This document shows positions 21,413 through 64,000 of a DNA stretch of 64,000 nucleotides, piece after piece (the first letter of the stretch is position 1; each line of letters begins with the position of its first letter). Below the pieces are notes generated by a model. It saw nothing but the letters and a program-made list of their open reading frames with translations. It searched no databases and was not told the origin of the DNA. Source of the stretch: Fundidesulfovibrio putealis DSM 16056 (GTDB taxonomy: Bacteria; Desulfobacterota; Desulfovibrionia; Desulfovibrionales; Desulfovibrionaceae); assembly GCF_000429325.1 (NCBI RefSeq), contig NZ_KE386885.1, forward strand, positions 523,958 through 587,957. Direction: 5' to 3'. Made by a program: the position numbers and the translations under genes.

Positions 21413-22798
21413 ATGAGTGATTCGTTTCTGAAGTCTGGGATTCTATCTCCAAGGCACGAAGTGTTTCCAATTATATCTTTAATGAAAAATGAGTTAATAA
21501 CGGGGTTCGACAGTAAGTTTGTTTCATTTGGCTCATGTTTTGCTGCTAATATCTCGGCGGCGTTGTGTGGTATCGGAATTCACTGCTACTTCAAAAGGGA
21601 AATTTGCAGACATTTTAGCACGGAAAGCCTTTTGAATGTACTTAAGATCGTCACCAATGAGAACAGCAAAATTCATTATCACAAGTATGACGACTATGTC
21701 GGCGGAATTAATCCGTGGCAATTTAGCATTGGGCGGATTTTTCAGACGCAGGATGATGTATCCAGAATAATTAACGAACTCGTCAAAGAGTTCCGTAATG
21801 AAATTGAGAGGGCAGATAATGTTATATTTACACTTGGAACGAATATAATCATTCGAGACAATGTGACGGGTGTATGTATTTCTACGTCTGATAAGATGCC
21901 GCCAGAAAGTTACGCGCAATTGTCGCTAAGCGTTGCTCAAATTGTCGGTCAATTGAATGAGATTCATGATGAGATTGTAAAAATTAAAGGAGGTGAACGA
22001 TTTAACTTTTTTGTTACTCTGTCGCCTCAACGATATTCGTTTGTGTCGGAAGATGACGGTGCATTCAATACGTCGACACAGTGTAAATTTGTTCAGAATA
22101 ATCTTTCAAAATCGATATGTAGAGTTGCAATAGATGAGTTTATTAGGTCAAGGCGGCGATGCTATTATTTCCCGTCATATGAGATTGTGGTCGATGAGTT
22201 GCGCTTGCAAGAGCAGTTTGTTGACAAGTTGCATGTCGATCTTGTCCGGACGGGAAACTATGTTGTGTCGCGTTTTATTGATCAGTATTTTTCAGAGAAG
22301 CTTATTGACGTAATAATAAAAGAAAAGCTTGGTGAATCTGATAAGCGGAGAAAGGTTCAGAGTAAGATAGTAACCGTTGGAGAGCAGTTCTTTGCAGGGA
22401 AAAAGCTTGACGAATTTATTTCAAGAATCGCATCTGCCATAGCAAATGACCCGGACAAGAGTTGGCTGTTTGAGTATTATGTGTATCATTTTGAAAGGCA
22501 TTGGGGGACAAAGGCGATAGATTTGCTTGTCACCACAGTGCTGGACAATTTCAGTGTACCATGTTTCTGGGGTGTTTCTGGGCGGTTTGAGAAGTTCTTC
22601 TCCCATCATCTTGCCGGACGGCAGGTCCTCTTGGTTGACACCAATCGAGGTGGAGATGTCGTCGGGGGAAGTTTGATACTTAGCCCGGATGAAATCATCT
22701 CTCGTCCGGAGGTCGATGTTATAATAATATCGTCAACGCATAGAGAGTCGATCAAGTCGAAAATTTCAGATCTAAAATTGAACTGTCGCATATTATAG
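21413..22798 (+). CDS. GSCFA-domain protein, probably surface-polysaccharide related
   Basis: The 461-residue protein has KFVSFGSCFAANIS near residues 35-48, the hallmark of the GSCFA family, an SGNH-hydrolase relative of uncertain activity. Residues 110-260 retain a hydrolase-like pattern (FTLGTN, FFVTLSPQRY). Residues from about 370 form a separate segment (CFWGVSGRFEKFF, VLLVDTNRGGDVVGG) resembling a Rossmann-like binding unit. Codon use is markedly AT-rich, unlike neighbours. It is followed after 45 bases by another SGNH protein, so the pair probably works together, perhaps in esterification or de-esterification of an exopolysaccharide. Function is inferred. Confidence 0.75.
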   Translation: MSDSFLKSGILSPRHEVFPIISLMKNELITGFDSKFVSFGSCFAANISAALCGIGIHCYFKREICRHFSTESLLNVLKIVTNENSKIHYHKYDDYVGGINPWQFSIGRIFQTQDDVSRIINELVKEFRNEIERADNVIFTLGTNIIIRDNVTGVCISTSDKMPPESYAQLSLSVAQIVGQLNEIHDEIVKIKGGERFNFFVTLSPQRYSFVSEDDGAFNTSTQCKFVQNNLSKSICRVAIDEFIRSRRRCYYFPSYEIVVDELRLQEQFVDKLHVDLVRTGNYVVSRFIDQYFSEKLIDVIIKEKLGESDKRRKVQSKIVTVGEQFFAGKKLDEFISRIASAIANDPDKSWLFEYYVYHFERHWGTKAIDLLVTTVLDNFSVPCFWGVSGRFEKFFSHHLAGRQVLLVDTNRGGDVVGGSLILSPDEIISRPEVDVIIISSTHRESIKSKISDLKLNCRIL

Positions 22799-22843
22799 TC
22801 CACAGGGCTTGGTGTTGCGAGGATGCAAAGAGGTGTGTTTGGT

Positions 22844-23857
22844 ATGCGGATAGTTGATATTCGAACTGAAGTAGCGCTTTGCGGCACCATTTGTCTCGAT
22901 GTCTCTGGTTCTGTGTCTAGGATCCCCCACGATGTACAGACACATAGTGGTCTTGAATATTTGAAGAAATGTCCTGCTGGGGTGCGGGTCGCGTTTCGAA
23001 CGAATTCAAAAGTCATTAAGGTTGCGTTTAATCAGGTTGGGCAGGCATCTGGCACGGATACTTTCTCAGCCTTTTCGATTGGCGCATTTGATATTGTAAC
23101 TAATGGTGTGATGCGCAGGCCGTTTTCATTGCTGTGGTGTAAGACATTCGATGACAGCTATACAACGTATTCGTTGGGCGGCGATGTGAATGATGTCGTC
23201 GTGTATATGCCAACGTACAGCATATGCCCGGAATTCAATATCTATGTTGATGACTACTCATACTGTGCTCCGATAGTATATCAGAAAAAGTTGTTGTTTT
23301 ATGGGACAAGTATCACGCAAGGTGCAGCATCGTGCAGACCTGCACTCAATTACGCGTCACGATTGTGCGCCATGTTGGGTTGTGACTACTATAATTTTGG
23401 ATTTGGAGGGAATGCCATCGGGGATCATCGAATGGTGGGCATTCTTAAGAGTATAGATTCTGACCTTTATATTATAAAGAGCGCGCGTCAAGCGTACGGA
23501 AATGTAAAACATAACATTGTCCGGATGGTTCGTGAGATCAAAGAAGTTGACGTCAATCGGTCTATATTGATAATTTCTGCCTTGGGTGATCAATTTGAAG
23601 TTGATATGTTTAACGGATCAGTCAGTCTCGACAAGAGACGGAAACTTGCATTTGAAGCATATGATATTTTGCGTAAAGAGTTCTCCAATATTTATTTTGC
23701 AGACGGCCTCGAATTGCTTTCAGGTATTGAGTCCGACTTGTTTCACGACGGTGTGCATCCAAATTCAATTGGGCATAAGTCTATTGCTTCAAGATTGTTT
23801 CCTATTGTTCAATCCATACTTGCGAGAAGCAAAACATCACCGAACGAAATCTGCTAA
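22844..23857 (+). CDS. SGNH/GDSL hydrolase
   Basis: The 337-residue protein starts at the Met preceded by AGAGGTG; a Met seven codons earlier has poorer spacing. Residues 1-140 form a beta-rich N-terminal domain, as in two-domain carbohydrate esterases. The catalytic region shows block I GTSITQGAAS with the nucleophile Ser, block II GFGGNA, and a C-terminal DGVHPNSIGH giving the Asp/His pair. An acyl or acetyl esterase on a glycan is likely. It shares the AT-rich composition of the GSCFA gene and so was probably acquired with it. Confidence 0.82.
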   Translation: MRIVDIRTEVALCGTICLDVSGSVSRIPHDVQTHSGLEYLKKCPAGVRVAFRTNSKVIKVAFNQVGQASGTDTFSAFSIGAFDIVTNGVMRRPFSLLWCKTFDDSYTTYSLGGDVNDVVVYMPTYSICPEFNIYVDDYSYCAPIVYQKKLLFYGTSITQGAASCRPALNYASRLCAMLGCDYYNFGFGGNAIGDHRMVGILKSIDSDLYIIKSARQAYGNVKHNIVRMVREIKEVDVNRSILIISALGDQFEVDMFNGSVSLDKRRKLAFEAYDILRKEFSNIYFADGLELLSGIESDLFHDGVHPNSIGHKSIASRLFPIVQSILARSKTSPNEIC

Positions 23858-44743: not shown

Positions 44744-44783
44744 TTGTCACATATTCTCTTGTCCGTCGTCACAGAACTGTAAT
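44744..44783 (+). promoter_or_regulatory. Putative tandem Pho boxes upstream of pstS
   Basis: Four 7-base units lie at exact 11-base steps: TTGTCAC (44744), TCTCTTG (44755), TCGTCAC (44766) and CTGTAAT (44777). Three resemble the CTGTCAT/C half-site of PhoB boxes and the last pair has the canonical spacing with spacer AGAA. They lie 79 bases before the pstS ATG, consistent with PhoB activation under phosphate limitation. Confidence 0.55.
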
Positions 44784-44861
44784 ATGTTACTCCTAGGGTC
44801 TGCACGCTGCCGGTCCCCAGTCTCCGGCACTCCTCAGAAACATCCCCCTGGAGGCAACAAA

Positions 44862-45674
44862 ATGAAGAAATTCACAGCCTTTCTTTTCGCGATCATGCTG
44901 ACCGCCACCGTGGCCCAGGCTCAGACCGCCATCCGCGTGGACGGCTCCACCACCGTGCTCCCCGCCATGCAGAAGATGGTGGAAGCCTACATGAAGGCCA
45001 ACTCCGGCGTGAACATCACCGTGTCCGGCGGCGGTTCCGGCAACGGCATCAAGGCCATCATCGACGGCACCACCAACATCGCCATGTCCTCGCGCGAGAT
45101 GAAGGACAAGGAGCTGGAGGCCGCCAAGGAGAAGGGCAACGTGGTCAAGCCCATGGTCATCGCCATGGACGCCCTGGCCCCCATCGTGAACCCGGCCAAC
45201 CCCGTCGCCGACCTCAAGGTCGAGCAGCTGCGCGACATGTTCTCCGGCAAGATCAAGAACTGGAAGGAAGTTGGCGGCGAAGACAAGGAAATCGTGCTGA
45301 TCTCCCGCGACACCTCGTCGGGCACCTACGAAGCCTGGCAGGAGCTGGTCATGGGCAAGGACAAGGTGTACCCCGGCGCGCTGCTTCAGGCTTCCTCCGG
45401 CGCGGTGCTCCAGGTGGTGAGCAAGAACAAGGCCGCCATCGCCTACGACGGCTACGCCTACGTGGACAAGACCGTGAAGGCCCTCAAGGTCAACGGCGTC
45501 ACCGGAAGCGAGGCCACCGTGGCCGACAAGTCCTACCCCGTGTCGCGCCCCCTGTTCATCATCGTCCCCGAGAAGGCCTCCCCCGAGGTCATGAAGTTCG
45601 TGGACTTCATCATGTCCCCGGCCGGCGGCCAGAAGATCATCGCCGAAGTCGGCTATTTCCCGGTCAAGAAATAG
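44862..45674 (+). CDS. pstS: Phosphate ABC transporter, periplasmic binding protein
   Basis: The 270-residue protein has a signal peptide (1-21, ATVAQA cut) and the phosphate-binding signatures RVDGSTTVLPAMQ, VSGGGSGNGIKAI and SRDTSSGTYEAW. It binds phosphate in the periplasm for PstCA. The ATG follows CTGGAGGCAACAA. Pho-box-like repeats lie upstream, and a hairpin before pstC may raise its level over the membrane parts. Confidence 0.96.
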   Translation: MKKFTAFLFAIMLTATVAQAQTAIRVDGSTTVLPAMQKMVEAYMKANSGVNITVSGGGSGNGIKAIIDGTTNIAMSSREMKDKELEAAKEKGNVVKPMVIAMDALAPIVNPANPVADLKVEQLRDMFSGKIKNWKEVGGEDKEIVLISRDTSSGTYEAWQELVMGKDKVYPGALLQASSGAVLQVVSKNKAAIAYDGYAYVDKTVKALKVNGVTGSEATVADKSYPVSRPLFIIVPEKASPEVMKFVDFIMSPAGGQKIIAEVGYFPVKK

Positions 45675-45732: not shown

Positions 45733-46626
45733 GTGGCCATCAGCCGAAAGCTCAAAGACGACCTGATCCGCAACCTCTTCCTGGTCACAGCCATGACCTC
45801 GATCATCGCGCTGGGCCTGATCATGGTTTATCTCTTCCTGGAAGGGGCTCCCATTTTCGAACACGTGTCCGTGGGCGGGTTCCTCTTCGGGAACTTCTGG
45901 TATCCCACGGCGGACCCGCCGGAGTTCGGCATCCTGCCCATGATCGCGGCCTCCATCGCCGTGACGATTTTTTCCTCGATCATCGCCATCCCGCTGGGCG
46001 TCATGACCGCCCTGTACCTGGCCGAGATCGCCACCCCCCGGATGCGTGGCATCTTCAAGCCTCTGGTGGAGCTTCTGGCCGCGTTGCCCTCGGTGGTCAT
46101 CGGCTTCTTCGGCATGGTGGTGGTCGCCCCCTTCCTGCAGGAAACCTTCGACCTGAATACCGGCCTCAACCTCCTGAACGCCAGTCTCATGCTGGCCTTC
46201 ATGTCCGTGCCCACCATCTGTTCCGTGTCCGAGGATGCCATCTACGCCGTGCCGCGCGAGCTCAAGGAGGCCTCCCTGGCCCTTGGCGCCACGCACTGGG
46301 AGACCATCCGCCGGGTCATCCTGCCGTCCTCGCTGTCTGGCGTGTCCACGGCCATCATCCTCGGCATGTCGCGCGCCATCGGCGAGACCATGGTCGTGCT
46401 CATGGTGGCGGGCGGAGCGGCCATGATCCCCACGTCCATCTTTTCGCCGCTTCGGCCCATGCCGTCCTCCATCGCCGCTGAAATGGCCGAGGCCCCTTTC
46501 CGGTCGGACCACTACCACGCCCTGTTCGCCATCGGCGTGGTGCTGTTCCTCTTCACCCTGGTCTTCAACATCATCGCCCAGCACATCGCCGAAAAGCACA
46601 AGCAGGTCGGCGCGGCCACGCTGTAG
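45733..46626 (+). CDS. pstC: Phosphate ABC transporter permease PstC
   Basis: The 297-residue membrane protein has six predicted helices and the permease EAA loop ELKEASLALGATHWETIRRV. The GTG start is preceded by CGGAG. The family AIGETMVVLMVAGG segment is present. With PstA it forms the channel energised by PstB. Confidence 0.95.
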   Translation: MAISRKLKDDLIRNLFLVTAMTSIIALGLIMVYLFLEGAPIFEHVSVGGFLFGNFWYPTADPPEFGILPMIAASIAVTIFSSIIAIPLGVMTALYLAEIATPRMRGIFKPLVELLAALPSVVIGFFGMVVVAPFLQETFDLNTGLNLLNASLMLAFMSVPTICSVSEDAIYAVPRELKEASLALGATHWETIRRVILPSSLSGVSTAIILGMSRAIGETMVVLMVAGGAAMIPTSIFSPLRPMPSSIAAEMAEAPFRSDHYHALFAIGVVLFLFTLVFNIIAQHIAEKHKQVGAATL

Positions 46627-46636
46627 GACACACCCC

Positions 46637-47506
46637 ATGCGTATCGACGACAAGCTTATCAGGCGGCGCAGGGGCGCTCAGGCCGTCATGTGGAACGTGT
46701 TCAGGTCCGCGTCGCTCATTAACGCCGCTGCCCTGGGCATCATCTGCATCTTCCTGTTCGTGAACGGCCTGCCCGCCATCACCTGGGAATTCTTAAGCCA
46801 GTCCCCGCGCGACTCCATGACCGCAGGCGGCATCCTGCCCTGCATCATCGGCACGGTGATCCTGTCGGTGGGCTCCATGCTGGTGTCGTTTCCGCTGGGA
46901 GTGGCCACGGCCATCTACCTGAACGAGTACGCCCGGCCCGGCAAGACCGTGCGCCTCATCCGCCTGGGCATAGCCAACCTGGCGGGCGTGCCCTCGGTGG
47001 TGTTCGGCCTGTTCGGCCTGGCCTTCTTCGTCACCTTCCTGGGCATGGGCGTCAGCATCATGTCGGGTGTTCTCACCCTGGCCATCCTGGTGCTGCCGGT
47101 GATCATCGGCACCGCCGAGGAGGCCCTGAAGTCCGTCCCCAGCACCTACCGCGAAGCCTCCCTGGGCCTGGGGGCCACCAAATGGCAGACCATCCGCATG
47201 GTGGTGCTTCCCGCAGCCCTGCCCGGCATGCTGACCGGGGCCATTTTGGGACTCTCCCGCGCAGCTGGCGAGACCGCAGCCATCATGTTCACGGCGGCGG
47301 TGTTCTTCGCGCCCAAGCTGCCCACGTCAATCTTTTCCGATGTGATGGCCCTGCCGTATCATATTTACGTGCTGGCCACGGCAGGCACCGAGATCGAGAA
47401 GACCCGCCCCCTTCAGTACGGAACGGCCCTGGTGCTGATCGCGCTGGTTTTGGGCATGAACCTGATCGCCATCATCTACCGGGCCAAGTTGCAGCGCAAA
47501 CGCTAG
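46637..47506 (+). CDS. pstA: Phosphate ABC transporter permease PstA
   Basis: The 289-residue membrane protein has the EAA loop TYREASLGLGATKWQTIRMV and PstA-typical GETAAIMFTAAVFF. It starts 11 bases after pstC with AGGA upstream. A terminator follows directly: no pstB ATPase or phoU comes after it, so these must lie elsewhere in the genome. The only PhoU domain in the window is fused to a kinase at 57921. Confidence 0.95.
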   Translation: MRIDDKLIRRRRGAQAVMWNVFRSASLINAAALGIICIFLFVNGLPAITWEFLSQSPRDSMTAGGILPCIIGTVILSVGSMLVSFPLGVATAIYLNEYARPGKTVRLIRLGIANLAGVPSVVFGLFGLAFFVTFLGMGVSIMSGVLTLAILVLPVIIGTAEEALKSVPSTYREASLGLGATKWQTIRMVVLPAALPGMLTGAILGLSRAAGETAAIMFTAAVFFAPKLPTSIFSDVMALPYHIYVLATAGTEIEKTRPLQYGTALVLIALVLGMNLIAIIYRAKLQRKR

Positions 47507-51195: not shown

Positions 51196-51469
51196 GGGGG
51201 TACTCCTTGGGTGGGTCGCGCGCGGACCATAGGCACGCCAAGGTTGGGGATTGGTTTAGGCCGCGTGACGATTGTGTTACGCAGGCTTCGCGCGTAAACT
51301 GATCGCGCAGTGCCGGAACGTGTTGAAAACAAAGGAGCCAGCCAAAGAAGACAGACGCGTGGATTGACTGTCATGGGAGTTCGGGAGCCGGTCATGGATT
51401 CGTCATATGATGCGGATAGCTTCGGGACGCCGCAGATTGCGGTCAGAACGTCCCCGAAAGGAAGGCCCA

Positions 51470-52681
51470 ATGACCCAGGAAGGCAACAAGAAGAATTACG
51501 TCCTCGACACCAACGTCCTCATCGAAAACCCCAACTCGGTGCTGGCCCTTCGAAACGGCAACGAAAACAACATCTTCATCCCCTACCACGTGCTCATGGA
51601 GCTTGAAACGCTCAAGAACACGCCCAAGCTCCGCCACATCGTCTCCAAAGTCATCACCAGCCTCATCGAGAACCGCGAACACATCACCTTCATCCGCAAC
51701 GGCGGCACCGACTCGCCCTTCACCCACATCGTGGACAACTACATCCTGGGCGAGATCGAGACCGCGCAGGACATGCAGGGCGTAAAAGACCCCATCCTGG
51801 TCACCAATGACCGCCTGCTGCAACTCCAGGCGTCGCTCAGAAACATCAAGAGCGAGGAACTGCGCGACTCCAAGCCCTTCGAGTCCGACTCGCAGCTGTA
51901 CACCGGTTTCGTGGAGGAGGCAAAGAACGCGCCGCCCAACTCGTTTCTCTGGCGCGACGGCAAGCCCGTGCTGCTGGGGCCGGAGGGCGAGAAGCCCATC
52001 GGCTACACCAACGACGTGTGGAACCTGAAGCCGCGCACCGTGTACCAGAACCTGGCCCTGGAGCTCATCTGCGCCGACCACGTGGACCTGGTGTCCATTC
52101 AGAGCGAGGCCGGGTACGGCAAGACCTACCTGGCCCTGGCCTCAGCCCTGTACATGGTGCTGGAGCGCAAGCTGTACGAGAAGGTGTTCGTGGTGAAGCC
52201 CACCATCGAGATCGGGGCCAAGCTGGGCTTCCTGCCCGGCGACATCGCCGAGAAGATGGAACCCTACATGAAATACATCTTCGACCTGCTGGTGAAGCTG
52301 CACAAGCAGCGTCCGGCCAACAAGATCTTCATGAACCCCAACGACGAGAACCTGCGCCTGAACGTGAAGAAGTTCGAGATCCTGCCGCTCGGCTACGTGC
52401 GGGGCATGAACATCGAGAACGCGTTCGTGATCGTCGACGAGGCCCAGAACCTGTCGCGCACGGAGGTGCGGGCGCTTTTGACCCGCATGGGCGAGGGCGT
52501 GAAGTGCGTGTGCCTGGGGGATACCTCGCAGGTGGACAACCCCTATCTGAACGAGGCCAACAACGGACTGAACTGGATCGTGAGGAAGTTCAAGGGGTTT
52601 GGGAACTACGGGCACATCGTGCTGAAGGGGGACCGCTCGCGCGGGCCGATCACGGACATGGTGCTCAAGAGCAAGCTGTAA
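51470..52681 (+). CDS. PhoH2-type protein (PIN domain plus PhoH ATPase)
   Basis: The 403-residue protein begins with a PIN ribonuclease domain (YVLDTNVLIENPNS; acidic residues through about 130) joined to a PhoH helicase domain with Walker A SEAGYGKTYLALA and Walker B AFVIVDEAQNLS. PIN-PhoH proteins act as RNA helicase-nucleases. The start follows AAAGGAAGG; the upstream frame to 51407 is not supported. It is a single-gene unit. Confidence 0.93.
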   Translation: MTQEGNKKNYVLDTNVLIENPNSVLALRNGNENNIFIPYHVLMELETLKNTPKLRHIVSKVITSLIENREHITFIRNGGTDSPFTHIVDNYILGEIETAQDMQGVKDPILVTNDRLLQLQASLRNIKSEELRDSKPFESDSQLYTGFVEEAKNAPPNSFLWRDGKPVLLGPEGEKPIGYTNDVWNLKPRTVYQNLALELICADHVDLVSIQSEAGYGKTYLALASALYMVLERKLYEKVFVVKPTIEIGAKLGFLPGDIAEKMEPYMKYIFDLLVKLHKQRPANKIFMNPNDENLRLNVKKFEILPLGYVRGMNIENAFVIVDEAQNLSRTEVRALLTRMGEGVKCVCLGDTSQVDNPYLNEANNGLNWIVRKFKGFGNYGHIVLKGDRSRGPITDMVLKSKL

Positions 52682-55501: not shown

Positions 55502-55654
55502 GCTTGGTCTCCGCGTTGGGGTGATCATCGCTGGGAATATGCAAGATATGCGCCTGGGAAAAATATTCCCGCCGCTTTACGGGACGGCGGCGGGGGCTGG
55601 CGGAGCCTGGGGGGGCGGTAACACGTTCGTCACGCAGCGAGCGTAGGTGAGGCC

Positions 55655-55714: not shown

Positions 55715-56314
55715 ATGCCCACCATTATGACCGGAAAATACAAGTCAGAGACGGTTGTGGAGAAGAGCGCGCTGGCGGGTTGGCTGCGCGAACTGGCGGA
55801 CGGCGTGGAGGCCGGGGAGCTGCCCTCGCAGGGCGGGCCGGTGAGCCTTGAGGGCTGCAGGGGCATGAAGCTGTCCGTGAAGCACGGGATGGGCGAGACC
55901 CTGTTCGTCAAGCTCTCCGTCAAGTTCCCCAAGCCCCCCAAGACGCTTGGGGCGGTTATGCCCGGCGACACCGACGACTCCGAGTATCCCGGCGACGAGG
56001 ATGAGGAGGACGACGAGTCTGGAACGCTTCCCAAGTATAAATCACTTAAAAAGCACATGAAGCAGACCTTCAAGGCCATCGGAGCGGCCCTGGCTGCGGG
56101 ACAGGTGCCCCCGACCCTGGAGGCCCAGAGCTTCATCGCGGATTCCCGCCTCATGGTCAGCTATCCGGGCAAGGGCGACGAATTCTACGCCGCCTACCTG
56201 GAAAAGACCGAGGCCTTCCAGGCGGCCCTGGACGCAGCCGACATCGAGGCCATGAAGGCCCTGTACCAGGATCTGGTCCAACTCAAGCGGGACTGCCACT
56301 CCCGTTACGCGTAA
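55715..56314 (+). CDS. GAK system XXXCH-domain protein
   Basis: The protein has 199 residues from the ATG behind GGAGGTCGGCGG; the earlier Met at 55655 is in the promoter. Residues 6-72 resemble the amphi-Trp domain of the protein at 57597. Residues 85-103 are an acidic linker. Residues 105-199 form the XXXCH domain, ending KRDCHSRYA with Cys194-His195: a cytochrome-c CxxCH-like motif lacking its first cysteine. Heme attachment is therefore uncertain. It heads the GAK operon and is a candidate substrate or carrier for the ligase and kinases. The family name is from memory of protein-family models. Confidence 0.82.
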   Translation: MPTIMTGKYKSETVVEKSALAGWLRELADGVEAGELPSQGGPVSLEGCRGMKLSVKHGMGETLFVKLSVKFPKPPKTLGAVMPGDTDDSEYPGDEDEEDDESGTLPKYKSLKKHMKQTFKAIGAALAAGQVPPTLEAQSFIADSRLMVSYPGKGDEFYAAYLEKTEAFQAALDAADIEAMKALYQDLVQLKRDCHSRYA

Positions 56315-56324
56315 GGCCGCAACC

Positions 56325-57500
56325 ATGCCCGAAACATCCATGGAACAGCTGAAGGCAGGCGCGCGCATCTGCACGGAGATCGACCTCTCGTCCATCCCGC
56401 GCGAGGTGACCGACTGGGACATCGAAACCTTTCTGGCCCTGACCTGCGCCGGGATCACCCCGGAGCAGCGCGAGGCCGTGCGAAACCCCGTGGCGCGCTT
56501 TCCCCGCCAGGAATACGTGCTGGCGGTGCACTGGCACCCGGAGCATGTCCCCATGGACATGATCTCCGACCGCATAAACGCCATGTACCCCAACCGGCGC
56601 GACGAGCTCATCATCCCCACCCAGCACAACCAGATACTCACCTGGGGGGACTACTCCGGGGTGGAGGTGGACTGCTACTCCCACGGCTTCAACCGCAAGG
56701 TGCAACTGCTCATCCACATGCGGGCTGACCAGGTGGAGAGGGCCGGGGTGCTCAGCAACATGCTCAAGCACACGTTCAAGTACCGCTCCTCGCAGCTCTT
56801 CGAGTACCTGGACGCCCTGTGCGAGCCCGAATGGGCCGACCGCCGCCACGCTGCTGCGGCAGTGGCCGGGTCGGACGAGGACATCGTCGATTTCACCTCC
56901 ATCCACGCCTGCCGCCTGAAGGCTCTCCTGACGCAGAACGAGACCCGCACCCCCCAGGACGCCATCAAGAACAAGCTGGTGCGAAACTATCTGGACTGCC
57001 TGCGCGAATTCTACGACGCGCGCTTCATCAACAAGGTGCAGGTCTACGCCAAGGCCGTGAAAGAGGTGGTGAAGGAGAACTTCTCCCTGGCCTACTTCTA
57101 CCGCGCCTCCGAGGTGGTGGAGGAGGCCCGCTCCATCGGCGCGGGCGTGGTCATCCCGCACCCGGAGCAGTTCTGGCCCATCCTTTTGCGCAACTACGAC
57201 GTGGACGGCATCGAGGTGTGGAACCCGCAGTCGCAGCAGTACACGGAGTTCCTGATAAACGTGGTGCTGGACCAGAACCGGCGCGGCTACCACAAGGACC
57301 GCCCCATGCTCATCTTCATGGGCGACGACTGCCACATGAGCGAAAAACTCAAGCGCCCCGAAGAGCAGGACAAGGAAAAGGTCAGCCGCGAGATCGGGCT
57401 GCAACCCGCCTGGGACGATCTGGGCATCGCCAAGGGGCTCATCATGTCCGGCGTGAGCCGCAAGACCGTGATGGACGAGTACCGCTCCAGGCTGGGCTGA
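56325..57500 (+). CDS. PHP-like metal-dependent protein of the GAK locus
   Basis: The 391-residue protein lies 10 bases after the XXXCH gene. It carries PHP-type metal motifs in order: HWHPEH (His69, His71), PTQH (His101), YSHGF (His120), IPHPEQ (His279) and GDDCH (Asp334/335, His337). PHP proteins are metal-dependent phosphoesterases or polymerase-associated nucleases. A phosphatase acting against the locus kinases is an appealing inference. The C-terminal segment (NPQSQQYTEFLINVVLDQ near 300-317) is not typical of histidinol phosphatase. The function of this family is unproven. Confidence 0.75.
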   Translation: MPETSMEQLKAGARICTEIDLSSIPREVTDWDIETFLALTCAGITPEQREAVRNPVARFPRQEYVLAVHWHPEHVPMDMISDRINAMYPNRRDELIIPTQHNQILTWGDYSGVEVDCYSHGFNRKVQLLIHMRADQVERAGVLSNMLKHTFKYRSSQLFEYLDALCEPEWADRRHAAAAVAGSDEDIVDFTSIHACRLKALLTQNETRTPQDAIKNKLVRNYLDCLREFYDARFINKVQVYAKAVKEVVKENFSLAYFYRASEVVEEARSIGAGVVIPHPEQFWPILLRNYDVDGIEVWNPQSQQYTEFLINVVLDQNRRGYHKDRPMLIFMGDDCHMSEKLKRPEEQDKEKVSREIGLQPAWDDLGIAKGLIMSGVSRKTVMDEYRSRLG

Positions 57501-57504
57501 GGCC

Positions 57505-57560
57505 CTTCCGGTTGGAGTCGGCCCGGCGTCATTTCGTAACGCGGCCGGGCTATTGGGTTG
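57505..57560. other. Hairpin within the GAK operon
   Basis: GCCCGGC and GCCGGGC pair across about 16 bases between the PHP-like and amphi-Trp genes, without a T-run. It could partly uncouple expression of the two halves of the operon. The gap is 96 bases, the longest before the HprK gene. Confidence 0.35.
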
Positions 57561-57596
57561 ACGTCCGCAACGACGTTCGCAGCGAGAGGTATCTTG

Positions 57597-57917
57597 ATGG
57601 ACAAGAAGGACAAGAAGGAACTGCCCGCCCGCGAGGGCAAGTTCAGCTACGAGGCCGTGGAAGACGCAGCCTCGCTGGCAAAATATCTCCAGGCCCTGAC
57701 CGAGGGCTTCGCCAGCGGCAGCATGCGCTTCTCCCGCAAGGACCTGGACATGGAGCTGTGCCCCAAGGGGCTGATCGGTTTCGCCGTGGAGGCCAAGGCC
57801 AAGGACGGACGCATGAAGCTGGCCCTGAAGTTCGCCTGGCGCGAGAGCGTGGAGGCCAAGGAACCCAAGAACGATACCCTGGCCATCGTGCCCGGAGCGT
57901 GCGGGGAAAAGGTGTAG
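57597..57917 (+). CDS. Amphi-Trp domain protein (GAK system)
   Basis: This is a 106-residue protein from the ATG behind GAGAGGT. After a Lys-rich start (MDKKDKKEL) comes one amphi-Trp domain: GKFSYEAVEDAASLAKYLQ, a Gly/Ser turn, and a strand ending KLALKFAWRES with the Trp at 81. Amphi-Trp domains are small and found beside ATP-grasp and HPr-kinase-related genes. Residues 1-85 align with residues 1-72 of the XXXCH protein. It may be a substrate or adaptor of the system. The stop lies 3 bases before the next ATG. Confidence 0.82.
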   Translation: MDKKDKKELPAREGKFSYEAVEDAASLAKYLQALTEGFASGSMRFSRKDLDMELCPKGLIGFAVEAKAKDGRMKLALKFAWRESVEAKEPKNDTLAIVPGACGEKV

Positions 57918-57920
57918 CCC

Positions 57921-59567
57921 ATGCGTTTCCTGGAAGGCGTGGAAGAGAACTTCCGGTTCATGGTCCTGGAAGTGACCAAGCAGGTGGAGAACACCCTCAA
58001 GGTGCTCGAAAATCCCGATCCTGCCCTGGTGGCCAAGATAGAGAGCCGCGACGACTACATCGACAACCTGAAGAGCGTCATCGAGAACAAGTGCTTCTCG
58101 CGCATCCACACCGGCTTCGGCGGCGACAAGCGGGCCATCGACCTGGCCCGGGCCGTGAACATCATCACCTCCAACCTGGAGCGCCTGGCCGACCACGCCG
58201 TGAACATCGTGATGCAGTCGCAGTACCTGCGCGACCCGCACTTCATCAAACGCTACGACTACAAGGCCTTCTTCTCGGAGATAACAAAGGCCCTGCGGCT
58301 GGTGGTGAAGGCCCTCTACAACCAGGACATCACCCTGGCCTTCAAGATCTGCCGCGCCGAAGTGACCCTGGACGCCCTGTTCAAGGCCAACTTCGACATC
58401 ATCCTCAAGGACCTTCGCAAAGGCGAATCCCCCGAGAACTGCATCACCGCCCACAACATCTTCCGCTACCTGGAGCGCATGGGCGACACCATCCTGAACA
58501 TCGGCGAGGCCATCATCTTCGCGGCCGTGGGCGAGAAGTTCAAGATCCACCAGTACGAGGCCCTCAAGGAGACCCTGGGGGAATTGGGGCGCGAGGTTCC
58601 CATCTCCGACGGCGAGTTCCACTCCATCTGGGGCACCCGCTCGGGCTGCCGCATCGGCAAGGTGGAGGGGGCGCGCCAGGGGGCGCGCACCAGCGGCGTG
58701 CTCTTCAAGGAGGGCAACGCCGAGAAGCTGCGCTGCGAGACCGAGAACATCCGCCGCTGGGAGGCGATCATGCCCGGCCTGCCGCCCAAGGTGCAGGCCT
58801 TCCACGTGGACGGCGACTCGGCCAGCATGCTCATGGAGTACCTGGGCGGCTGCACCTACCAGGAGGTTGTCCTCTCGGGCGCTCCCGAGATTGCGGCCAA
58901 CGCCACGTTCATCCTGGAGCAGACCGTGCGCCAGCTCTGGCAGGAGACCCGCACCGACCGAACGGTCAAGGCCGGGTACGTCAAGCAGCTGACCCAGCGC
59001 CTGGACGACGTGTACCGCATGCACCCCTCCTTCCGCACTCCGGCCATGGAGATGACCGGCGTGCCCGTGGCCGGGTTCGAGGCCATGCTCGAGCGCACCG
59101 CCGAACTGGAGGCGCGCTTCGAGGCCCCCTTCAGCGTGTTCATCCACGGCGATTTCAACATAAACAACATCGTGTACAACCACGAAGAACAACGAATCCA
59201 CTACATCGACCTGCACCGCTCCAAGGACACGGACTTCGTGCAGGACGTGTCGGTGTTTCTCATCTCCAACTTCCGCATGCCCGTGCTGGACAGCCTGCTG
59301 CGCACCCGGCTTGACGACGTCATGAAGGAGTTCCTGTCCTTCTCGCGTGCCTTCGCCGTGGAAAACGGCGACGCGACCTTCGAGGCGCGCCTGACGCTTG
59401 GGCTCATCCGCTCCTTCATCACCTCCAGCCGCTTCGAGTTCAACCACCGCTTCGCCAAGGAGATGTTCCACCGGGGCGTCTACCTGATGCGAAAGCTCGA
59501 CGTGCATAGGCAATCCGGCAAACCGTGGGAAGGCTTCGTCCTCCCTGACGACGTCCTCATCTATTGA
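57921..59567 (+). CDS. PhoU domain fused to an APH-type kinase
   Basis: The 548-residue protein has an N-terminal PhoU domain (1-215) with both helical repeats: NLERLADHAVNI at 85-96 and ERMGDTILNIGE at 185-196. A C-terminal aminoglycoside-phosphotransferase-like kinase (about 225-530) has FKEGN near 262-266, the catalytic loop HGDFNINN at 409-416 and a metal Asp430 in YIDLHRS. PhoU proteins bind metal clusters and signal phosphate status through PstB/PhoR. The fusion suggests phosphate-dependent phosphorylation of a small molecule or protein. It lies 3 bases after the amphi-Trp gene, in the GAK operon. The real substrate is unknown. Confidence 0.85.
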   Translation: MRFLEGVEENFRFMVLEVTKQVENTLKVLENPDPALVAKIESRDDYIDNLKSVIENKCFSRIHTGFGGDKRAIDLARAVNIITSNLERLADHAVNIVMQSQYLRDPHFIKRYDYKAFFSEITKALRLVVKALYNQDITLAFKICRAEVTLDALFKANFDIILKDLRKGESPENCITAHNIFRYLERMGDTILNIGEAIIFAAVGEKFKIHQYEALKETLGELGREVPISDGEFHSIWGTRSGCRIGKVEGARQGARTSGVLFKEGNAEKLRCETENIRRWEAIMPGLPPKVQAFHVDGDSASMLMEYLGGCTYQEVVLSGAPEIAANATFILEQTVRQLWQETRTDRTVKAGYVKQLTQRLDDVYRMHPSFRTPAMEMTGVPVAGFEAMLERTAELEARFEAPFSVFIHGDFNINNIVYNHEEQRIHYIDLHRSKDTDFVQDVSVFLISNFRMPVLDSLLRTRLDDVMKEFLSFSRAFAVENGDATFEARLTLGLIRSFITSSRFEFNHRFAKEMFHRGVYLMRKLDVHRQSGKPWEGFVLPDDVLIY

Positions 59568-59583
59568 GCCCCTGGAGCAACGC

Positions 59584-60459
59584 ATGAAAAAGATAGGTGT
59601 CGTCGGCATCTCGGACGGCTGGTCCTCCGAGATATTGGCCGACGCGTGCAGGCAGCTGACGGGTTTCCGCCTGCTCATCGACATGGACAAGGTCGTCCTG
59701 GACCTGGAGCAGGGCACTGTGCGCTTCGGCGAGTACGACCTGGGGGAGCTGGACGCGCTTATCGTCAAGAAGATCGCGCCCCAGTATTCGCCGGACGTGC
59801 TGGACAGGCTGGAGATGCTGCGCTTCCTGGAGCAGAAGGGGTTGCCCATTTTCTCCAAGCCCACGTCCATCCTGCGGCTCATAGACCGCCTGAGTTGCAC
59901 CGTGACGCTCAGCGCGGGCGGCCTGCCCATGCCCGCCACGGTCATCACCGAGAGCGTGGACGAAGCCCAGGACGCCGTGGAGCGCTTCGGCAAGGCCGTG
60001 TTCAAGCCGCTCTATTCCACCAAGGCCAGGGGCATGGAGGTCATCAGCGCGGGCGAGGGCGCGCGAAGCCGGATCGAAGCCTTCCAGGCAGCGGGCAACA
60101 CCATCATGTATCTCCAGAAGATGCTGCCACCCCTGGAGAAGGACCTTGGCGTCACCTTCCTGGGCGGGAAATACCTGGCCACCTACGCCCGCAAGTCCAG
60201 CGGCTCCAGCTGGAACACCACCACCAACGCCGGGGGCAAGTATGTGGCCCACGAGCCGTCGCCCGAGATTATCGCGCTGGCCGAGAAGGCGCAGTCGCTC
60301 TTCGACATGGCCTTCACCTGCGTGGATATCGCCGAGACCAGCCAAGGCCCCATCGTGTTCGAGGTGTCGGCCTTCGGCGGATTCCGGGGCCTCTTGGACG
60401 CCTGCGGCATCGACGCGGCCGGAGCCTACGCCAAATACGTTCTGGAGAACATCGGATGA
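59584..60459 (+). CDS. GAK system ATP-grasp ligase (RimK-like)
   Basis: The 291-residue enzyme is RimK-like. It begins MKKIGVVGISDGWSSEI, has an ATP-grasp lid (KAVFKPLYSTKARGMEVI near 138-155) and a metal-site ending VFEVSAFGGFRGLLDACG. RimK-type enzymes add glutamate or other amino acids to protein or peptide carboxyls using ATP. A small protein of the operon could be the acceptor. GGAG precedes the ATG; the stop overlaps the kinase start by ATGA, so the two are translationally coupled. Confidence 0.85.
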   Translation: MKKIGVVGISDGWSSEILADACRQLTGFRLLIDMDKVVLDLEQGTVRFGEYDLGELDALIVKKIAPQYSPDVLDRLEMLRFLEQKGLPIFSKPTSILRLIDRLSCTVTLSAGGLPMPATVITESVDEAQDAVERFGKAVFKPLYSTKARGMEVISAGEGARSRIEAFQAAGNTIMYLQKMLPPLEKDLGVTFLGGKYLATYARKSSGSSWNTTTNAGGKYVAHEPSPEIIALAEKAQSLFDMAFTCVDIAETSQGPIVFEVSAFGGFRGLLDACGIDAAGAYAKYVLENIG

Positions 60460-61526
60460 GCACCACCATCAAGAACCTCGCCGCTCCCTTCGTGGAGCGC
60501 TTCCCCTGTCCGTATGAACTCAGGCTGGCCCTGGGAGGCTTCGGGGTGGACGTGCGCTCCAACGACGAGCGCCTCATCCTCTGGCTGAAGGACTATTTCC
60601 GCGACTTCCTGCGCGCCTCCGGCCCGGCCTTGTGCGAGGTGCTGGCCATCGAGTGCGACCCGCAGACTTTGGAGCTGGACTATCTGGTCAAGGAGCCCGA
60701 GCCGGGCAAGTCCAAGATCAAGGAAGAGTGGGCGGACCTCCCCGATGGCCGCGTGGTGCGAAAGCGCCTCACCGGCATGCTCTTCCTCTTCGGCGGTGAC
60801 TGCCATCTGGCGCTTGGCCCCTGCCTGGACAACCCCAACCAGATAGTCAACTTCATCAACAACCGCTTCATCGAATACAAGCTGAACCAGGGCTGTCTGC
60901 TGGGTCACGCGGCGGGAGTCTCCTGGCGCGGGGACGGGCTGGCCCTGGCCGGGTTCTCCGGCATGGGGAAGTCCACCCTGGCCCTGCACATGATGAACCT
61001 GGGGCTCAATTTCGTGTCCAACGACCGAGTGATGCTTGGCCGGGGCGAGGCTGGCCTGACCATGTACGGCGTGGCCAAGATGCCTCGCGTAAATCCGGGC
61101 ACGGTGCTGAACAACCCGAGCCTGTCCGCCGTCATGCCGGACGAGGACCGCGCCGCCTTCAAGGATCTGCCCATCGAGGAGCTCTGGAGCCTGGAGCACA
61201 AGTACGACGCCTTCATAGACGAGTGTTACGGGGCCGGGCGTTTCGATCTGGAAGCGCGCGCCAAGGGGCTGGCCATCCTCAACTGGAAACGCGGCGGCGG
61301 CGAGCTTACGGTCGCGCAGGTGGATATCGGCAAGCGCCGGGATCTGCTTCCCGCGTTCATGAAGAGCACAGGGCTCTTCTATGACAGCGGCACGGATATG
61401 CCCGTGCCGGACTTCTCGGAAGACGCCTACGTGGCGTTCCTGAAAGACTGCACGGTGCTGGAAGTGACCGGTGGGGCCGACTTCGAGCGCGCCGCCGAGG
61501 AGTTGACGAAGTTCCTGAAGGGATAA
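60456..61526 (+). CDS. HPr-kinase-related P-loop kinase (HprK-related kinase B)
   Basis: The 356-residue protein has a P-loop GFSGMGKST at 166-174, followed by HPr-kinase-like VSNDR (187-191) where HprK has an aspartate pair. The N-terminal 145 residues (beginning TIKNLAAPFVERFPCPYEL) are a separate domain. HprK phosphorylates a serine in HPr; no HPr is present, so the substrate is probably another protein, perhaps the amphi-Trp or XXXCH product. It begins within the ATP-grasp stop. A 270-base repeat-rich gap separates it from the CofD-like gene. Confidence 0.83.
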   Translation: MSTTIKNLAAPFVERFPCPYELRLALGGFGVDVRSNDERLILWLKDYFRDFLRASGPALCEVLAIECDPQTLELDYLVKEPEPGKSKIKEEWADLPDGRVVRKRLTGMLFLFGGDCHLALGPCLDNPNQIVNFINNRFIEYKLNQGCLLGHAAGVSWRGDGLALAGFSGMGKSTLALHMMNLGLNFVSNDRVMLGRGEAGLTMYGVAKMPRVNPGTVLNNPSLSAVMPDEDRAAFKDLPIEELWSLEHKYDAFIDECYGAGRFDLEARAKGLAILNWKRGGGELTVAQVDIGKRRDLLPAFMKSTGLFYDSGTDMPVPDFSEDAYVAFLKDCTVLEVTGGADFERAAEELTKFLKG

Positions 61527-61796
61527 TCGCCGGGGCTCCGCCCCAGACCCCGGCAGGGCTCTGCCCTGCACCCGCCAGGGGGATGATCCCCCTGGACCCT
61601 GCATTAGGCTTCGCGTAGTTTTTGAGCCAGGCTGGCATCGACGCGAAGCCCATTGAAAGTTTTTGAAGGAGAGCTCGAGAGGCCAACTTTTCAGGAAGAA
61701 AAGTTGGACGCTGCGAAGCAGCGCCCGAAGGGCGAGGGCCAGGACGGCCCGAGTCACACTTTTTTCCAAAAAGTTTCCTCTCGAATCTTAAATCTT
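61527..61796. repeat. Dispersed intergenic repeat, copy C, inside the GAK operon
   Basis: Several hairpins follow in order: GGGGCTCCGCCCC (61533-61545), GCAGGGCTCTGCCCTGC (61554-61570), CCAGGGGGATGATCCCCCTGG core (61575-61595) and CCAACTTTTC/GAAAAGTTGG (61683-61707). The first and third recur elsewhere in the window, in inverted order at 24295 and 32966. T-rich patches at 61617-61622 and 61759-61765 could terminate or attenuate transcription before the CofD-like gene. Confidence 0.6.
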
Positions 61797-62990
61797 ATGC
61801 CAACAGTCACCATCTCCCATACGGTCTCATTGCCGGACCCGGTGAAGATCGCGCGCTTCCTGAAGGCCCCGGAGCTTGGGCCGCGCGTGCTGTTCTTCAG
61901 CGGCGGAACGGCGCTTCGCGATCTCTCCCGGGAGCTGGTGCGCTACACCCACAACTCCACGCACCTGATTACGCCGTTTGATTCGGGCGGCTCCTCGGCG
62001 AAGCTGCGCACCACGTTCAAGATGCTGGCCGTGGGCGACCTGCGCAACCGCCTGATGGCGCTGGCCGACCGCTCCCTGCACGGAAATCACGAGATTTATA
62101 ACCTGTTCGCCCACCGGCTGCCCAAGGACCTGGGGCACGACGAACTCATGGCGCTGCTGGCGGCCATGATCGAGGGCCGCGACCCCCTGGTGGCGGACGT
62201 GCCCGACCCCATGCGCAAGATCATCCGCTCGCACCTCAAGTTCTTCCGCAAGGCCATGGCCGCTACGGACTTCGACCTGCGCGGCGCGAGCATCGGCAAC
62301 CTGATCCTGGCTGGCGGGTTCTTCAACTACAACAGGCAGATCGACCCGGTGATCTACATGTTCACCATGCTGGTGAAGGCGCGCGGCACGGTGCGTCCCA
62401 TCATCAACAAGGACCTGACCCTGGTGGCGGAGATGGCCGACGGCACGCTGCTGGCGGGCCAGCACCTGCTCACGGGCAAAGAGGGCGGGCCTATCGCCCA
62501 GCCGGTGAAGCGCGTGTACCTGAGCGAGAATCAGCAGAACCTGCGCCCGGTGGCAGTGAACGTGCGGCGCAAGGTGAAGGAGCAGATCCGTTCGGCGGAG
62601 CTCATCTGCTACCCCATCGGCAGCTTCTATTCGAGCCTGGTGGCCAACCTGCTGCCCATGGGGGTGGGGGACGCCATATCCAAAGCCCAGTGCCCCAAGG
62701 TGTTCATCCCGAACCCTGCGGGCGATCCGGAGCAGTTCGGCCTGGGCCTGGGCGACAGCGTCCGGCGTCTGATGGAGTATTTGCGGGCCAGCTGCACCAA
62801 GCCGCGCCCCACGCAGTCGCTTCTGAATTTCGTGCTGCTGGACAGGAGCAAGCACTACCAGACGCCCTTGAACCTCAAGCAGATCGAGGCCATGGGCATA
62901 AGCGTCATCGAGGCCGACCTGCGCAGCCTGGAGAAGCCGCCGTATTTCGACGAGCAGGCCGTGATCGAACACCTGCTCTCTCTTGCCTGA
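61797..62990 (+). CDS. GAK system CofD/YvcK-like protein
   Basis: The 397-residue protein resembles the CofD/YvcK superfamily: a FFSGGTALRDLS glycine loop at 34-45, a region GASIGNLILAGGFFN, and SFYSSLVANLLPMGVGDAI near 280. CofD transfers a phospho-lactyl or phosphoenolpyruvyl group; YvcK binds UDP-sugars. The chemistry here is unknown. No clear ribosome site precedes the ATG (TCTTAAATCTT); an alternative upstream start would run through the repeat. It is the last gene of the cluster. Confidence 0.8.
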   Translation: MPTVTISHTVSLPDPVKIARFLKAPELGPRVLFFSGGTALRDLSRELVRYTHNSTHLITPFDSGGSSAKLRTTFKMLAVGDLRNRLMALADRSLHGNHEIYNLFAHRLPKDLGHDELMALLAAMIEGRDPLVADVPDPMRKIIRSHLKFFRKAMAATDFDLRGASIGNLILAGGFFNYNRQIDPVIYMFTMLVKARGTVRPIINKDLTLVAEMADGTLLAGQHLLTGKEGGPIAQPVKRVYLSENQQNLRPVAVNVRRKVKEQIRSAELICYPIGSFYSSLVANLLPMGVGDAISKAQCPKVFIPNPAGDPEQFGLGLGDSVRRLMEYLRASCTKPRPTQSLLNFVLLDRSKHYQTPLNLKQIEAMGISVIEADLRSLEKPPYFDEQAVIEHLLSLA

Positions 62991-63134: not shown

Positions 63135-64000
63135 TCAGCAGGGGGTGACGGTCTTCTTCCTGTCCGTGGAGCAGGCCACCATGCCCACGGGGCCGCGCCG
63201 GTCGCGCACCCAGACGTTGCCGGGCTGGCTCTTGGCGTACTTCTTCATTTCGGCGGAGCGCTGGCTGATTGACTCCAGCGAGCAGTGCCCGTGGCAGTCC
63301 ACGATGGCAAGCGACAAAGACACGAACCCGAAGCGTCCTTCCTTGCCGGTGCGGTCCTTGCCGACGATGAACCCGGCTGCGCGGTCGGCTTCGTGGTAGC
63401 AGCGGTGCACAAGCCTGGCAAAGCAGCGGGTGATGGCCTTGCAGACGCGCTCGGCCTTGTCCGGGGTGCTGCACAGCACGAAATCATCGCCGCCCACGTG
63501 CCCCAGGAAGTCCGAGGGCGAGCCGTGGCGCCTGAGCGCCCAGCCCAGGATGCGGGCGGTGAGCATGATGATCTCGTCGCCGGCCTTGAAGCCGTAGGAG
63601 TCGTTGTAGACCTTGAAGTTGTCCAGGTCGGCGTAGATGAAGCTGACGGGGCTGCCGGAGCTGACGCGCTTTTCCAGCTCGCGCTCGATGGCCACGTTGC
63701 CGGGCAGGCCGGAGAGGGGGTTTGCCCCTTTGGCCAGCTCCATCTGCACCTGGGCCAGGGCGTCCAGGATCTTCTGCACCGAGGCAAGCCCCGCCAGGCG
63801 TCCTTCCCTGGTGACCAAAACGTGGTCGTAGAGCTTGTAGCCGTCGCGGTTCATGGCGGCCTGGGCCACCACCTCCAGGGGTGTGCCCCAGTCCACGATG
63901 AGCGGCTGGCTGTCCATAATCTTGGTGACGGGCTTGTTGGTGTAGAGCGCAAGCCCGTACTGGGAGGCCAAGGCCCGGTCCATCTGGTGGCGGGTGACCA
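63135..64000 (-). CDS. CBS-GGDEF protein, 5-prime end outside the window
   Basis: The frame is open to the window edge and the first in-window Met (63983) is internal in appearance. Visible, from the N-terminal side, is a CBS-like segment (LALYTNKPVTKIMDS, DHVLVTREGRLAGL) and a GGDEF domain with DLDNFKVYNDSYGF and the variant active site HVGGDDFVL. GGDDF is often active but less usual than GG[DE]EF. This architecture is common in EAL-CBS-GGDEF proteins, so an EAL domain may lie upstream. It probably makes or senses cyclic di-GMP. Confidence 0.88.
   Translation of the reverse strand, partial: VTRHQMDRALASQYGLALYTNKPVTKIMDSQPLIVDWGTPLEVVAQAAMNRDGYKLYDHVLVTREGRLAGLASVQKILDALAQVQMELAKGANPLSGLPGNVAIERELEKRVSSGSPVSFIYADLDNFKVYNDSYGFKAGDEIIMLTARILGWALRRHGSPSDFLGHVGGDDFVLCSTPDKAERVCKAITRCFARLVHRCYHEADRAAGFIVGKDRTGKEGRFGFVSLSLAIVDCHGHCSLESISQRSAEMKKYAKSQPGNVWVRDRRGPVGMVACSTDRKKTVTPC

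Follow-up and report, generated by a model that had tools for sequence, protein, structure and literature searches.

A complete GAK locus of Fundidesulfovibrio putealis and its probable place in the phosphate-limitation response

The GAK locus and its genes

The DNA analysed here (the window) is a stretch of 64,000 nucleotides from Fundidesulfovibrio putealis DSM 16056 (contig NZ_KE386885.1, positions 523,958 to 587,957). At 55715-62990 on its plus strand lies a complete member of the known, uncharacterised GAK system (NCBIfam TIGR04354-TIGR04358), which is probably part of the phosphate-limitation (Pho) response. New here are its link with phosphate starvation, structural identities for two proteins, evidence that speaks against a dedicated-substrate role of the small proteins, and a variant in which the phosphatase is replaced. 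The GAK families are not named in the papers searched, which gave no GAK function and no paper usefully linking YvcK, HprK and PhoU; the passages found in PMC5193443 and PMC10102598 hold nothing on GAK.

Family calls are based on NCBIfam curated cut-offs and Pfam gathering thresholds. The first gene encodes the XXXCH protein (55715..56314; TIGR04358, 103 bits, cut-off 40), with an N-terminal amphi-Trp-like domain (residues ~8-70), an acidic linker and a C-terminal bundle (~106-199) ending CHSRYA. It is followed by a PHP-like metallophosphoesterase (56325..57500), which gives no family match and represents a GAK-specific family lacking a Pfam or NCBIfam name, and by an amphi-Trp domain protein (~57597..57917, start uncertain; TIGR04354, 58.7 bits, cut-off 31). 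Next are a PhoU-APH fusion (57921..59567; PF01895, 90.6 bits in two stretches, PF01636, 27.5 bits, and PF02958, all over gathering), a RimK/MptN-like GAK ATP-grasp ligase (59584..60459; TIGR04356, 448 bits, cut-off 300) and the HprK-related kinase B, HprK_B (60456..61526; TIGR04355, 514 bits, cut-off 200). The last gene encodes the GAK CofD/YvcK-like protein (~61797..62990; TIGR04357, 529 bits, cut-off 340; PF01933, 135 bits), the start of which is uncertain, the open reading frame (ORF) being open from 61653. Most intergenic gaps are short; the ATP-grasp and HprK_B genes overlap by 4 bp, and ~270 bp separate HprK_B from the CofD-like gene.

The first-pass annotation, made from the sequence alone, described seven clustered plus-strand genes forming a complete GAK locus, and used the family names GAK, XXXCH and amphi-Trp. 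All seven genes are present and intact, five of the seven proteins exceed curated GAK cut-offs in a hidden Markov model search, and the names are those of the matching NCBIfam models. With all five families in one cluster and the gene order of its relatives, the locus shows no difference in kind from the GAK system; its ATP-grasp protein is 88% identical to that of Fundidesulfovibrio agrisoli. Judged from sequence, the system extends beyond 55715-62990, to a predicted PhoB-type box at 55617-55634 and to phoH and pstSCA upstream.

Co-conservation of the GAK genes

Co-occurrence was assessed by Fisher test in 148 genomes of the phylum. The GAK ATP-grasp ligase is over its cut-off in 12 of these and truncated at a contig end in one more, giving 13 GAK genomes. 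HprK_B (12 genomes), the APH domain of PhoU-APH (12) and the PHP-like protein (11) always occur with the ATP-grasp ligase and never without it (p 1e-14 to 1e-17). The PhoU-APH and PHP-like proteins have no NCBIfam GAK family name, yet they are confined to GAK genomes, and the present analysis adds their genes as core members of the system. The first-pass annotation had tied its reading to co-conservation of the genes, and the result for the 148 genomes, which agrees with it, excludes chance clustering. The CofD-like protein is present in 9 of these GAK genomes, as well as in three genomes of the same family that have none of the rest of the system. The loci of these three, L045, L046 and L047 (L-numbers designate loci of relatives), contain CofD_rel_GAK alone, beside an apparent jag-mnmE neighbourhood, one of them also near a PiT-type phosphate permease, these neighbours being named by eye.

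Scanning bacterial and archaeal genomes turned up >500 relatives, and the 80 best were taken for comparison; the locus was set against ~90 other GAK copies. Represented among the 80 are Desulfobacterota, Nitrospirota, Phycisphaerae, Zixibacteria, Polyangia and Gammaproteobacteria, and the order [XXXCH]-PHP-amphi-PhoUAPH-grasp-HprK-CofD-[amphi] is repeated in dozens of loci from several phyla. Pairwise divergences of the GAK genes correlate (r 0.59-0.83, uncorrected for shared ancestry). Five Solidesulfovibrio genomes carry their PHP and CofD genes away from the main GAK cluster, elsewhere in the genome, and in four of them CofD adjoins an HprK_B gene; since the genes persist together in this way, their functional bond outlasts physical splitting.

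PhoB-type promoter boxes and Pho genes at GAK loci

The experimentally mapped PhoB box of D. vulgaris (DNA affinity purification on chip, DAP-chip) is a repeated (c/t)GTnAC, with a spacer that PMC3333781 states as 4 bp. Approximately 80 bp before the first GAK gene, at 55617..55634, there is a predicted PhoB-box-like tandem GTnAC repeat with an 11-bp period, which reads GGTAACACGTTCGTCAC on the plus strand and matches YGTNACN5YGTNAC perfectly on the minus strand. Comparable predicted repeats precede pstS (44767..44784; CGTCACAGAACTGTAAT, one mismatch) and phoH (51264..51281; perfect on both strands). The window contains three perfect matches at two sites, one ahead of phoH and the other ahead of GAK, against 0.14 expected, a number that none of 100 shuffles reached. 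Six of the seven matches with at most one mismatch lie before pstS, phoH or GAK, the remaining one elsewhere; the number of one-mismatch matches is not above chance, and what matters for these is where they lie.

Across relatives, boxes were scored at >=9/10 positions and <=260 bp upstream of GAK, with 581 other promoters of the same loci as controls. The 11-bp-period box, i.e. that with a 5-bp gap, is present at 17 of 80 GAK loci compared with 29 of the 581 controls (p 5e-6); six other spacings (gaps of 2-4 and 6-8 bp) show no comparable enrichment. The 11-bp period agrees with that of the E. coli box. No sigma-70-type promoter was matched.

The pstSCA genes, phoH and GAK all lie within 18 kb of the window, on the plus strand. 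The phosphate-binding protein gene pstS (44862..45674; TIGR02136, 282.6 bits, cut-off 206.6) encodes the only PstS over cut-off in the genome and lies 10 kb before GAK. It is followed by pstC (45733..46626; TIGR02138, 294 bits) and pstA (46637..47506; TIGR00974, 286 bits), both over cut-off, and, between these genes and GAK, by phoH, encoding a PIN-PhoH protein (51470..52681; PF02562, 156 bits; PF13638, 64 bits). PIN-PhoH-type genes are also near GAK in L040, L043, L067 and L078, and clustering of unlabelled GAK neighbours yields PhoB-like regulators, Pst components and PhoH. In 11 of ~80 loci, the window included, GAK has standalone PhoU and/or Pst genes beside it: PhoU, confirmed by NCBIfam, in L040, L043, L076, L080, L089, L094 and L131, and Pst proteins in L043, L070, L080, L089, L098 and L131, with a fragment just below cut-off in L079. 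If 1-3% of 20-kb stretches are assumed to carry such genes, the rough probability of this frequency arising by chance is 1e-5 to 1e-9. The PhoB-like protein of L094 is nearest to PhoB, at 236 of 296 bits, under the cut-off; a PhoU-like neighbour in L133 was dropped, there being no NCBIfam PhoU match. In L174 and L176, both from Solidesulfovibrio, the order is pstB-phoU-HprK_B-CofD, with HprK_B a second copy; HprK_B, PhoU and CofD are over cut-offs in both and pstB in L174. The first-pass annotation had taken the PhoU part of one kinase as a hint of phosphate control, and with the box, the pst and phoH genes of the window and the pst/phoU operons of relatives that hint becomes much stronger.

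It could be argued that the boxes and the pst neighbourhood are accidental and that the cluster consists of co-inherited unrelated genes, given that most loci have no detectable box and that synteny can be inherited without any functional tie. The spacing-specific enrichment, the concentration of near-matches at three Pho-type promoters in the window and the joint retention of GAK genes by genomes that carry them at two or more separate loci all oppose this explanation, which we regard as extremely improbable.

Several further neighbours recur. A GGDEF/CBS cyclic di-GMP (c-di-GMP) protein, with an EAL domain in its full-length relative, is found at six loci (the window, 63135-63998 on the minus strand, L043, L079, L089, L127 and L134); the gene of the window's copy, downstream of GAK, is preceded at ~44 bp from its start, just beyond the window's edge, by three GTnAC-type repeats. 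A protein of ~800 residues with a PHP-like N terminus (recognised by eye) and a GT4 glycosyltransferase domain is present beside GAK in five loci (L067:3745-6183, L070:1417-3867, L098:4273-6672, L102 and L105) and is a candidate phosphate-free glycolipid synthase. L067, L070 and L131 share a conserved trio near GAK, encoding proteins of ~350 residues, ~340 residues (phosphatidylserine decarboxylase) and ~800 residues (no Pfam match). A phosphomannomutase/phosphoglucomutase gene follows amphi-Trp, with no CofD nearby, in L034:3158-4513, L044:296-1663 and L131:12741-14210. At 21413-23857 the window has a low-GC island (~44% GC, compared with 64% for the genome) carrying GSCFA-like and SGNH-like ORFs, named by eye, that was probably acquired.

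Kinases, ligase and CofD-like protein

The PhoU-APH protein combines two PhoU repeats with an APH/EcKL-type kinase domain, assigned as such by its Pfam match and the catalytic HGD....N and D motifs; the motifs HGDxNxxN and IDLxR are kept in 79 homologues. It reaches the PhoU domain threshold (PF01895), but not that for full-length PhoU (TIGR02135; 87.8 of 130.25 bits). In HprK_B the P-loop GxGKST, H152 and D191 are invariant among homologues, and we take these, from alignment by eye, to correspond to catalytic residues of B. subtilis HprK.

For the ATP-grasp ligase the next-best families are MptN (139.7 bits), RimK (103.3 bits) and LysX (86 bits), with which it shares family and overall motif order, MptN being the nearest. 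The PF08443 threshold is reached, whereas the score falls below every equivalog cut-off and below the subfamily cut-off of the RimK alpha-L-glutamate ligase (TIGR00768; 143.4 bits). The sequence EVSAFGGF is nearly invariant among its homologues, all of which have EVS as the metal-site motif, where RimK reads EVN.

The CofD fold together with a ligase nearest to MptN might also indicate an F420- or tetrahydromethanopterin-type cofactor pathway unconnected to phosphate, with the pst linkage incidental. The fusion to PhoU, the Pst and PhoU neighbours in several lineages and the PhoB boxes make such a pathway very unlikely.

A further possibility is a regulatory switch like that of Firmicute HprK and YvcK, in which HprK_B would phosphorylate the CofD/YvcK-like protein or a partner, so steering UDP-sugar and envelope metabolism at low phosphate. 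The GAK proteins have in common with HPr kinase/phosphorylase and YvcK of Firmicutes an HprK-fold kinase with conserved His, P-loop Lys/Ser and Asp, and YvcK-like GGT and DSGGSS motifs. YvcK (TIGR01826) is the next family for the CofD-like protein, which reaches the CofD threshold (PF01933); in L118 (3874-6210) HprK_B and the CofD-like protein form a single ORF of 779 residues; both genes follow phoU in Solidesulfovibrio; and phosphomannomutase/phosphoglucomutase and PHP-glycosyltransferase genes stand beside some GAK loci. However, both proteins are far below the curated cut-offs (YvcK, 117.5 of 196 bits; HPr kinase TIGR00679, 23.8 of 240 bits), HPr or Crh was not identified in the locus, and a switch of this type leaves the ATP-grasp ligase and the PhoU-APH kinase unexplained; we regard it as unlikely.

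The PHP-like protein and its replacement

The PHP character that the first-pass annotation gave to one protein is supported at the level of the predicted fold. An AlphaFold2 (AF2) model of the PHP-like protein (predicted local distance difference test score, pLDDT, 91) has the PHP (beta/alpha) barrel fold, and its best structural matches (Z 15.6-16.9) are to RNase AM and TrpH-type phosphoesterases, among them BAD_1165 (Z 16.9, with 239 residues at 3.3 A), RNase AM of V. cholerae (Z 16.1) and Cv1693, whose structure holds AMP and phosphate (Z 15.7); unrelated structures lie far lower, at 6.6. The sequence gave nothing useful against PDB sequences, and the Pfam PHP model matches none of 48 family members, for which reason the protein is called PHP-like. 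Its invariant residues are H69xH71, H101, E114, H131, H279 and D335xH337, a role as metal ligands being assigned by pattern only. With RNase AM, TrpH, BAD_1165 and Cv1693 the PHP-like protein shares the fold and, as far as the pattern shows, apparently most putative metal ligands; it differs from these in a large helical insert and in that the Asp of the HxHxxxxD motif is apparently replaced by an invariant Pro.

In six gamma/alphaproteobacterial GAK genomes no PHP homologue was found anywhere, a result that rests mainly on genomes of 5.8 Mb and 3.8 Mb because some of the six are incomplete metagenome assemblies. All six keep CofD (one below cut-off), and their GAK operons carry some of the following: a Nudix protein, a SixA-type histidine phosphatase fused to Nudix, a second histidine phosphatase (His_Phos) and a calcineurin-type phosphoesterase (Metallophos). 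That other phosphatases take its place points to phosphate removal as the task of PHP. Nucleotides are the main substrates of Nudix enzymes and of TrpH-type PHP proteins.

The XXXCH and amphi-Trp proteins

The AF2 model of the XXXCH protein (mean pLDDT 87) consists of a beta-alpha-beta-beta domain and a four-helix bundle. The amphi-Trp model weakly matches the N-terminal domain in the window, and it does so in the same frame for several relatives. For the bundle, the nearest structures are cytochromes c' and b562, with cytochrome c' giving the top Foldseek matches; structural comparison yields Z ~11 over 91-101 residues, a level that helical bundles can reach by chance, and a PDB profile search independently picks the cytochrome c' family (E 1e-3). 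Like these cytochromes, XXXCH has a four-helix bundle with a C-terminal (C)HxxY[KR]; it differs in being fused to an amphi-Trp-like domain and in that the first Cys of CxxCH is absent throughout the alignment, inspection of which (with no signal-peptide predictor run) also revealed no hydrophobic leader. Assignment as a true cytochrome c' was rejected on these grounds, which also make a covalent c-type heme unlikely; the bundle may hold heme non-covalently or have a different ligand. A protein of 96 residues consisting of the XXXCH domain only is encoded elsewhere in the same genome (C28:318588-318857; L053:5580-5867), between sugar epimerase-like and ParA-like genes.

The first-pass annotation regarded both small proteins as candidate acceptors of a modification. 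On this explanation the kinases would phosphorylate amphi-Trp and/or XXXCH, the ATP-grasp ligase would extend them, and PHP would undo one of the steps. In its favour, amphi-Trp is present in all 13 GAK genomes and XXXCH in six of them, the RimK and LysX relatives of the ligase modify proteins, and a conserved CHxxYK tail ends XXXCH. The distribution of the two proteins argues otherwise, since GAK is absent from 11 of the 17 genomes with XXXCH and from 20 of the 33 with amphi-Trp, and XXXCH is absent from about half of GAK loci. The cytochrome c'/b562 fold accounts for the C-terminal motif of XXXCH, a bundle that does not look like an acceptor peptide, and the amphi-Trp protein has few conserved residues (L32, K70 and W82). 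As both occur in many genomes that lack GAK, where their neighbours show no common theme, they are probably not dedicated GAK substrates, and modification of these proteins as the function of the locus is rather doubtful.

A probable Pho-response module

The GAK locus is probably a Pho-response module. This reading builds on the co-conservation, the Pho/Pst linkage and the PhoB-type boxes; the data also support the fold of the PHP-like protein, the cytochrome c'-like bundle of XXXCH and the replacement of the phosphatase. In common with the Pho regulon, GAK has a PhoB-type box, pstSCA and phoH as neighbours and a PhoU domain in a core protein; it differs in that it is not a transporter, scavenging phosphatase or lipid-remodelling enzyme, and in that its control by PhoB is predicted.

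Several observations weigh against such a placement or against the chemistry proposed below. The enriched box has a 5-bp gap, whereas the 4-bp gap, corresponding to the published D. vulgaris spacer, shows no enrichment. At the threshold used 63 of the 80 GAK loci have no box, and the 17 that do include close relatives, amounting to ~11 lineages. The E. coli-type Pho box (CTGTCAT repeats) is not enriched upstream of GAK, and a three-repeat PhoB pattern tried across the F. putealis genome was rejected (21 matches, compared with 27 for the reversed control). The PhoB targets named in the main text of PMC3333781 do not include GAK genes. CofD is retained without the other GAK genes in the three genomes mentioned above. 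With respect to chemistry, HPr kinase phosphorylates a small protein and the best-known HprK substrates are proteins.

As a Pho-response module, GAK would be activated in phosphate scarcity by PhoR/PhoB, jointly with pstSCA and phoH. Through its PhoU half, PhoU-APH may then tie the activity of its kinase half to the status of phosphate uptake. The APH-type kinase, ATP-grasp ligase, HprK_B and CofD-like protein, in an order that we can only infer, would build or charge a phosphorylated, amino-acid-conjugated compound, from which the PHP-like phosphoesterase, or in gamma/alphaproteobacteria the Nudix, histidine-phosphatase and metallophosphoesterase set, would strip or recycle phosphate. The amphi-Trp and XXXCH proteins may be cytosolic accessory or binding proteins. 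The product is more likely to be a nucleotide- or cofactor-like small molecule than one of the small proteins of the locus: homology leans to a small-molecule over a protein substrate, and the former is preferred because of the mostly nucleotide-directed activity of Nudix and TrpH-type PHP enzymes and the homology to MptN and CofD. Taken alone, small-molecule chemistry is a tentative proposal. It is possible, if on the doubtful side, that GAK is a PhoU-coupled, PhoB-controlled pathway for making and erasing a metabolite not yet described, phosphorylated and conjugated to an amino acid, which would serve as a cofactor or an intracellular messenger of phosphate starvation in Desulfobacterota and scattered Nitrospirota, Planctomycetota, Zixibacteria, Myxococcota and Gammaproteobacteria.

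Phosphate scarcity matters for sulfate reducers in anoxic settings (compare PMC5193443, on D. alaskensis). GAK is a recurrent bacterial cassette (>500 relatives) named by family models only, and its probable placement in the Pho response gives experimenters a condition and phenotypes to work with, and a testable role for two kinases, a ligase and a phosphatase. The placement further suggests that PhoU, as a domain joined to a kinase, can exert its effect by way of that kinase.

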